This document shows, piece by piece, positions 63,137 through 64,000 of a DNA stretch of 64,000 bases. The stretch comes from Actinomycetota bacterium (GTDB taxonomy: Bacteria > Actinomycetota > Geothermincolia > Geothermincolales > RBG-13-55-18): assembly GCA_030019255.1 (NCBI GenBank), contig JASEFK010000004.1:203387-267386 (forward strand). The letters run 5' to 3'. The translations under genes were made by a program, and so were the position numbers. The notes below the pieces were generated by a model. It worked only from the letters and a program-made list of their open reading frames with translations. It searched no databases and was not told the origin of the DNA. Positions within the stretch are counted from its first letter, which is position 1. Each line of letters begins with the position of its first letter.

Positions 63137-63424
63137 ATGGAACGGTACTTGAAGGCGGTGGACGGCGAGAAAAAGGAGCACGACCTGCTGCTCTTCGCCC
63201 TCTCCACCTGCGGGTGGTGTAGGAAGGCCAGGAATTTCCTGGAAGAGAACAAGCTCGCCTACCGCTACGTCTACGTGGATCTCCTGGAAGGGGAAGCCCA
63301 GAAGGAAGTCTTCGAGGAGGTCAAGAAGCGCAACCCGCGGCGGACCTTTCCCACCCTGGTGGTGGACGGAAACGAGGTCATCGCCGGGTTCAACGAAGAC
63401 CGCTATCGGGAGGTACTGCTTTGA
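63137..63424 (+). CDS. Glutaredoxin-like thiol reductase
   Basis: A 95-residue thioredoxin-fold protein. The active site is STCGWCRKARNFLEEN (CxxC at residues 30-33), and TFPTLVVDGNEVIAGFNEDRYRE supplies the cis-proline and the substrate-binding end of glutaredoxins. A lead of about 15 residues precedes the fold. ATG 63137 follows AAAGGAG. Its stop overlaps the start of the reductase gene (TTGA), so the pair forms one unit in which the reductase probably reduces this glutaredoxin with electrons from ferredoxin or rubredoxin. Confidence 0.9.
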   Translation: MERYLKAVDGEKKEHDLLLFALSTCGWCRKARNFLEENKLAYRYVYVDLLEGEAQKEVFEEVKKRNPRRTFPTLVVDGNEVIAGFNEDRYREVLL

Positions 63425-64000
63425 GCGAGGAGTACCCGACGGAGGTGCTGGACCTCTACCGCAGGCTCCATGAGGAGGCGGAGTCGGCAGGCTACCACCT
63501 CAACCCGGACCGGGACTTCACCCTCATGCTTGTGGACGGCCTGTACCGCAACGGGGAGCGGTACGGGTACATGCTCTGTCCCTGCCGCATCGGCGAGGGG
63601 GAGAGGGAGAAGGACCTGGACATCATCTGCCCCTGCGACTACCGCGACGCGGACCTCGAGGAGTACGGGCAGTGCTACTGAGCGCTGTACGTAACCCAGG
63701 AGGTCCTGGAAGGCAAACGCAAGGTAGAGGGGCAGATACCCGAGAGGAGGCCGGAGCCGGAGGAGCTGGAGCGAAGGCGTGAAGCGGCCCGCGAGGCTAC
63801 CGTGACCGCCGAGGGCCGGCTGCCCGTCTGGCGCTGCAAGGTCTGCGGCTACCTGGCGGCCCGCGAGAAGCCTCCCCAGGTCTGCCCGGTGTGCAAGGCC
63901 TCCGCCGACCGCTTCGAACCCTTCCCGCCTCCAGGTGGAGAGAGGCTGCCCGTCTGGCGCTGCAAGGTCTGCGGCTACCTGGCGGCCCGCGAGAAGCCTC
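63421..64000 (+). CDS. Ferredoxin:thioredoxin reductase catalytic subunit with an in-frame TGA (probable selenocysteine) and tandem rubredoxin domains, partial
   Basis: FTR reduces a thioredoxin or glutaredoxin disulfide through a [4Fe-4S] cluster. The family pattern CPC...CPC...CxC is present as MLCPCRIGEGE (near residue 60), IICPCDYRDAD (near 77) and GQCY followed by TGA at 63679-63681. The TGA stands exactly where the last, catalytic cysteine belongs, and the frame continues with ALYVTQEVLEG, as in FTR proteins, for a further 106 codons. Then come two rubredoxin-type metal sites, CKVCGYLAAREKPPQVCPVC and a second cut by the window edge (period 42 residues). A SECIS-like hairpin follows the TGA. 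Read as a stop, it would give 86 residues lacking the catalytic thiol. TTG 63421 overlaps the glutaredoxin stop. Confidence 0.85.
63679..63720 (+). promoter_or_regulatory. Candidate bacterial SECIS element
   Basis: After the TGA (63679-63681), CCAGG (63696-63700) pairs with CCTGG (63705-63709) around the loop AGGT. The loop's first G is 20 bases after the TGA, close to the spacing in E. coli fdhF, whose loop also reads AGGUC. GCG (63682-63684) can pair with CGC (63718-63720) as a lower stem. SelB would bind the loop. Confidence 0.6.
63820..64000 (+). repeat. Intragenic repeat: duplicated rubredoxin-like domain
   Basis: The 55 bases at 63820-63874 are identical to 63946-64000 (the window end), offset by 126 bases or 42 codons. 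Perfect identity at the DNA level points to a recent duplication or gene conversion within the gene. Confidence 0.92.

Follow-up and report, generated by a model that had tools for sequence, protein, structure and literature searches.

Does the TGA that interrupts a ferredoxin:thioredoxin reductase (FTR) gene at this locus end translation, or does it specify selenocysteine (Sec) at a redox position, and what would the resulting enzyme reduce? The gene lies at the end of a 64,000-nucleotide stretch of DNA (here called the window), and it was compared with loci from the same class and phylum and from more distant organisms.

A gene pair at the window end

The window closes within the second of two adjacent genes, which encode a glutaredoxin and an FTR (Table 1). 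The reductase starts with a TTG at 63421 and shares bases with the glutaredoxin stop TGA at 63422-63424, an overlap that an earlier note on this DNA had described and that was borne out here. The note had also reported CPC, CPC and C-Y-TGA motifs in a frame leading into rubredoxin domains, and this was confirmed by ORF analysis, translation and Pfam matches across the TGA. Past TGA87, the frame (ALYVTQEVLEGK...) stayed open to the window end and encoded a complete rubredoxin-like domain and a truncated second one; relatives carried one or two such domains. The window end coincides with a stretch of N in contig C4, 97 letters long by eye, and this assembly gap probably arose because the two rubredoxin-like domains are near-identical. 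Beyond the N run, the rubredoxin repeat closes with ...FEPFPL-TGA, so TGA is also an ordinary stop in this genome.

Table 1. Features of the glutaredoxin-reductase locus; residues of the reductase are numbered by reading through the TGA
Feature	Position	Strand	Basis
Glutaredoxin gene, 95 aa, motif TCGWC, first of the pair	63137..63424	+	Pfam Glutaredoxin, 51.9 bits (cut-off 22.9); ORF list
GGGAGGT, likely ribosome-binding site of the reductase	63408..63414	+	By eye, 6 nt before TTG
FTR gene of the ferredoxin:disulfide reductase (FDR) type, with an in-frame TGA and with rubredoxin-like domains, continuing into the assembly gap beyond the window	63421..64000	+	ORF, translation, Pfam
First CPC, residues 53-55 (Cys53 and Cys55)	63577..63585	+	Translation; alignment to 4tpu, 7pwe, 2pvg, 2puk and 2pu9
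Second CPC, residues 70-72 (Cys70 and Cys72)	63628..63636	+	Translation; structure alignments
C85-Y86-U87, predicted Sec codon TGA at 63679-63681	63673..63681	+	Translation; alignments
Hairpin CCAGG-AGGT-CCTGG, predicted SECIS core, G in loop	63696..63709	+	Base 1 lies 17 nt past the T of TGA
Rubredoxin-like domain 1 (RUBY_RBDX), two CxxC motifs	63829..63918	+	Pfam, residues 137-166
Rubredoxin-like domain 2, near-identical to the first, cut by the assembly gap	63937..64000	+	Translation, Pfam

The rubredoxin-like domain pairs of this locus (63829-64000) and of L032, L035 and L038 were almost identical within a genome and different between genomes, as if homogenised by repeated duplication. Two near-identical tandem ORFs of 174 aa, each with a hydrophobic start, were observed just beyond the window (L002:6041-6565 and 6934-7458).

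Domain composition and structural relatives

The FTR domain FeThRed_B (PF02943) matched residues 17-99, spanning the TGA, with 80 bits against a cut-off of 22, and the rubrerythrin-type rubredoxin domain RUBY_RBDX (PF21349) scored 66.5 bits in the read-through protein. The CPC-CPC-CxC layout of FTRs was complete, comprising Cys53, Cys70, Cys72 and Cys85 together with the pair Cys55/Sec87, in which Sec takes the place of Cys. In plant and cyanobacterial FTR, a redox disulfide at a [4Fe-4S] cluster joins the second Cys of the first CPC to that of the last CxC, and the catalytic chain works with a separate variable chain. On the model of these enzymes, Cys53, Cys70, Cys72 and Cys85 are presumably the cluster ligands and Cys55 presumably the substrate-attacking thiol.

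The closest solved relative was 4tpu (193 bits over residues 8-168, rubredoxin part included), which we take to be from Methanosarcina acetivorans and which is named Rubredoxin in the PDB listing. The window protein shares its FDR architecture, an FTR domain followed by a rubredoxin-like part, but 4tpu has a single rubredoxin domain and has Cys where the window protein has Sec. The next relative, 7pwe (ferredoxin-thioredoxin reductase subunit B; 110 bits, residues 7-115), was alike in the FTR domain only, the match lacking the rubredoxin part, and likewise has Cys at position 87. The FTR catalytic chains 2puk, 2pu9 and 2pvg, presumably of plant or cyanobacterial type, have the same CPC-CPC-CxC layout but no rubredoxin part and matched far more weakly (about 27 bits). 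In all five alignments, residue 87 stood opposite the last Cys of the CYC (4tpu, 7pwe) or CHC (2pvg, 2puk, 2pu9) motif.

The homologue search returned at least 8000 homologues, every scored candidate passing, and almost all of the 120 top-listed ones had both domains; three of these (P0096, P0108 and P0111) carry the NCBI name ferredoxin:glutaredoxin reductase. By analogy with the characterised enzymes, the window protein is predicted to hold a [4Fe-4S] cluster and to carry out ferredoxin-dependent disulfide reduction.

Codon 87 in related loci

An FTR was found in 26 of the 31 genomes of the class, Geothermincolia, with TGA at this codon in 18 and a Cys codon in 8; a CHC-type FTR without TGA (L051, at G011:C4:2046-2267) was left out of these counts. 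When any residue was allowed at the position, the motif was recovered from 106 of 107 loci, L051 being the exception, and the codon was TGA, TGC or TGT in all 106, eight of the TGA loci and some of the Cys loci being duplicates of another's sequence. The in-frame UGA of the window gene thus stands opposite Cys in homologues. Since 27 distinct FDR-type loci share TGA at this codon, its occurrence is not attributable to chance. P0003, an NCBI record near the window protein, has C at the Sec site and was not counted because U may be written as C in the database.

Among 396 genomes sampled from the phylum, 59 had an FTR, and internal TGA codons were seen only in the same 18 class genomes and in G395, which has two. 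Two further genomes of this sample, G196 and G284, each gave an FTR match with a single in-frame TAA. The FTR stretch of G027, from the window's genus, was the same as that of L054, from Candidatus Solincola tengchongensis.

In a tree of 121 FDR-type proteins, built by a quick method with 48 of 118 inner branches below 80, at least 10 changes between Sec and Cys were counted by parsimony and at least 5 by starred branches. A single Sec/Cys switch was rejected, the tree requiring 10 changes.

Linkage to glutaredoxin

A glutaredoxin was sought within about 700 nt upstream of each FTR locus, with the window glutaredoxin as the tblastn query and E values to 1e-3; the motif was present in 169 of the 177 loci entered, the other 8 being two selA loci and six FTR loci not counted. 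A match preceded 131 of the 134 FDR-type loci (35/35 Sec and 96/99 Cys), the exceptions being L103, L112 and L127. In distinct stretches the counts were 27/27 for Sec and 91/94 for Cys, and all 14 archaeal loci examined had the gene. The same search found no upstream glutaredoxin at loci of the two other Sec-FTR types described below (0/21 CHU, 0/11 double-Sec). The link is not unique to the FDR type, because the one CHC locus (L051) and both CWC loci (L133, L159) share it. Given this conserved linkage, the upstream glutaredoxin is likely the substrate of the window reductase, a reading from gene neighbourhood that supports the pairing put forward in the earlier note.

The strongest competing proposal is that thioredoxin or ribonucleotide reductase is the main partner of the Sec-FTR and the glutaredoxin a mere neighbour. 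In PMC6262447, FDRs are described as Fe-S enzymes akin to the catalytic subunit of plants, an FDR of M. acetivorans is said to reduce a thioredoxin (citing Prakash 2018), and a cited title links an FDR with class III ribonucleotide reductase. Against this stand the near-constant glutaredoxin of FDR-type loci, archaeal ones included, its absence from all 32 loci of the two other Sec-FTR types, and the ferredoxin:glutaredoxin reductase name given to the three homologues above. We regard a different main partner as unlikely and continue with glutaredoxin as the probable substrate.

Selection and a hairpin downstream of the TGA

When the window gene was compared with 12 of the 17 other Sec copies of the class, dN/dS past the TGA was 0.16-0.40 in all 12 pairs (ratios worked by hand; upstream of the TGA, one pair was saturated).

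Folding energies past the codon were compared with those of synonymous-codon versions for 95 distinct rows. Mean z values were -1.9 in 20 Sec copies, -0.6 in 8 Cys copies of the class and +0.2 in 67 Cys copies from elsewhere. For the window gene itself z was -1.5, and a fraction of 0.09 of its shuffles were as stable. One of the Sec copies had a z of +0.1; L027 (-3.1) and L041 (-2.6), both Cys copies of the class, were among the strong ones. Because folding energy was too weak per sequence, placed hairpins were counted instead, defined by a stem of at least 5 pairs, a G early in the loop and a start 13-17 nt past the T of TGA. Identical stretches were counted once, and expectations were derived from synonymous codons.

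The hairpin was present in 18/18 class Sec copies (1.4 expected) and in 8/9 FDR-type Sec copies beyond the class (1.9 expected). Cys copies had it in 3/8 cases within the class (0.3 expected) and in 0/85 FDR-type cases beyond it (2.0 expected). When the rule was fixed, 20 of the 27 Sec copies were already known as DNA; 6 of the 8 non-class Sec matches (L196-L201) came from DNA that had not been seen until then. Among the other FTR types, the counts were 8/11 for double-Sec copies (0.6 expected), 1/18 for CHU Sec copies (0.0 expected) and 0/2 for CWC copies (0.0 expected). L152, which has two TGA codons, lacked a hairpin of this definition.

Two forms of the hairpin occurred in the class Sec copies. 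One, CCAGG-AGGU-CCUGG, starts 17 nt past the T of TGA, and the other, UCCAGG-CGGGU-CCUGGA or near variants, is shifted by one base; they use different codons and residues (T-Q-E or S-Q-E versus S-R-R or S-G-R). L026 is a class Cys copy that keeps the hairpin, perhaps reflecting a recent Sec-to-Cys change. The class selD genes had a TGA followed at a similar distance by a hairpin (GGUCC-GGA-GGACC and variants) in 25 of 27 copies, by a looser rule for which no chance expectation was computed; the two copies missed by the pattern, L217 and L228, had no TGA in their match. An Rfam scan of 63000-64000 gave no known SECIS family, only chance matches. The UGA of the window gene is nonetheless closely followed by a SECIS-like hairpin, whose function is predicted.

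If the TGA were a true stop, the product would be an 86-residue FTR minus its second thiol, and the remainder of the frame would be dead or freshly started downstream. A frame with a GTG start does begin at 63802, downstream of the TGA; it has 66 codons or more, is open at the window end and ends at the TGA after the gap. However, purifying selection acts past the TGA, 27 distinct loci share the codon, it alternates only with Cys codons, and the hairpin is associated with Sec; we consider termination here very improbable.

Sec insertion genes and tRNAs

The genome containing the window (98.76% complete) carries selD, selA and selB at C14:29141-34727, all above curated cut-offs, followed at C14:34936-35027 by a tRNA-Sec (selC) that was also above cut-off and has the anticodon UCA. 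Its selD has an in-frame TGA of its own. Within the class, selA was found in 27 of 31 genomes, including all 18 with a Sec-FTR and 5 of the 8 with the Cys form, and since it is kept in the latter, having sel genes does not commit a genome to the Sec form. The four genomes without selA (G001, G010, G013 and G015) also lacked selD above cut-off; the FTR is of the Cys form in three of them and absent from the fourth. One genus contains both states, G011 having Sec and selA, and G010 (86% complete) having Cys and no selA. Outside these counts, selA was found in the genomes of both L106 and L110.

A second match to the tRNA-Sec model, with the Cys anticodon GCA, was observed beyond the window, about 8 kb from the Sec-FTR (L004:1501-1589, minus strand; G000:C4:275810-275898). 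It scored 61.1 bits against a cut-off of 47, has a U after the acceptor stem (by eye) and looks like a selC* tRNA-Cys, a kind listed in PMC7609411 for Firmicutes, Thermodesulfobacteria, Nitrospirae and Proteobacteria. Insertion of Cys or some other amino acid at the UGA by a suppressor tRNA, for which one could cite this second tRNA-Sec-like tRNA and the tRNA-Sec-like tRNA-Cys with a UCA anticodon known elsewhere (PMC7609411), is the least credible reading and close to negligible, as, of the tRNAs examined in this genome, the second tRNA-Sec match has the anticodon GCA and reads UGC/UGU, and the UCA tRNA-Sec adjoins selA, selB and selD.

Proposed function

We consider it highly probable that the window gene encodes an FTR-type disulfide reductase fused to rubredoxin-like domains, in which the UGA is predicted to be read as Sec by the cell's own SelA, SelB, SelC and SelD, with the upstream glutaredoxin likely being reduced. 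The earlier note's placement of Sec at the FTR redox Cys is supported by the sel genes that it had proposed looking for (selA, selB, selC and selD, all present), by relatives that align through the codon with either Cys or TGA, by the Sec-associated hairpin and by the glutaredoxin linkage.

In the proposed mechanism, SelB would read the small hairpin 17 nt past the UGA and bring Sec-tRNA. The [4Fe-4S] cluster would be held by Cys53, Cys70, Cys72 and Cys85, and the finished enzyme would contain a Cys55-Sec87 selenenylsulfide, reduced one electron at a time from ferredoxin directly or via the rubredoxin-like domains. The Sec87 selenolate may then remain on the cluster as Cys55 attacks the disulfide of the glutaredoxin.

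Relation to other Sec-FTRs

The earlier note had guessed that FTR might be a new selenoprotein family, which proved wrong. A 2008 study of GOS ocean metagenomes (Zhang and Gladyshev, PMC2398784) predicted two Sec-FTR sequences, one with Sec for both redox Cys and the other perhaps single-Sec. FTR with CxU also appears in two later reviews (PMC9312934, PMC13188914), the second of which gives NF041072 and two Sec. Assignment of the window protein to NF041072 (double-Sec FtrB) was rejected, its score being 54.6 bits versus a cut-off of 160; it has one TGA before the gap, and its first motif is CPC. L187 (224 bits) and L192 (219 bits) fitted this model, and L198 (49.6 bits), L172 (43.6 bits) and L152 (50.8 bits) fell below the cut-off.

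The double-Sec FtrB proteins (NF041072 and the GOS Sec-FTR; here L185-L195) resemble the window protein in that Sec, predicted from DNA, takes the second Cys position in the last CxC of an FTR domain. They differ in having Sec in the first motif too (CPU...CIU) and in lacking both rubredoxin and, in 11 of 11, an upstream glutaredoxin. A plant-like CHU type from Chloroflexota (in L155-L184) has Sec at the same thiol as the window protein but belongs to another FTR branch, and has neither rubredoxin nor upstream glutaredoxin and almost never the hairpin.

In the class of G397, the Dehalococcoidia genome that contains L110, an FTR was found in 191 of 393 genomes, many with one or two TGA codons. 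From this class 48 loci were taken, 17 of them chosen for TGA and one for TAG; the motif was present in 42, comprising 21 CHU, 11 double-Sec, 6 CYU with rubredoxin, 3 CYC and 1 CWC. The plant-like single-Sec CHU type was frequent among the best matches there, and its member L172 lies outside NF041072.

The rubredoxin-fused, glutaredoxin-linked, single-Sec FTR, which also occurs in Chloroflexota, appears undescribed in the open literature searched: no description of an FDR-rubredoxin Sec type was found in that literature, which lacks most subscription papers. We think it rather probable that these proteins form a second widespread Sec-FTR lineage, a glutaredoxin-dedicated FDR-rubredoxin fusion whose lone Sec beside the [4Fe-4S] cluster would give a selenolate intermediate, and in which Sec and Cys have been swapped at least 5 to 10 times with the partner kept. 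This adds a further Sec-FTR to the pair of GOS sequences and NCBI's double-Sec model, one that is common across an actinobacterial class, is present in Chloroflexota too, and belongs to an enzyme type for which a relative has been solved and a partner protein is obvious. Because natural Sec/Cys pairs of one predicted iron-sulfur enzyme exist, one can directly test what selenium gains at a thiol beside a [4Fe-4S] cluster. When ORFs are called with the standard code, such genes are cut at the UGA.

One unusual FTR was observed at L152:770-1111 (G395:C74), preceded by a glutaredoxin and without rubredoxin. Its two TGA codons give a CYU motif and a C-U-P-C motif, the latter placing Sec at the cluster-ligand first Cys of CPC with an extra Cys before it, which represents either an assembly error or a shifted ligand.
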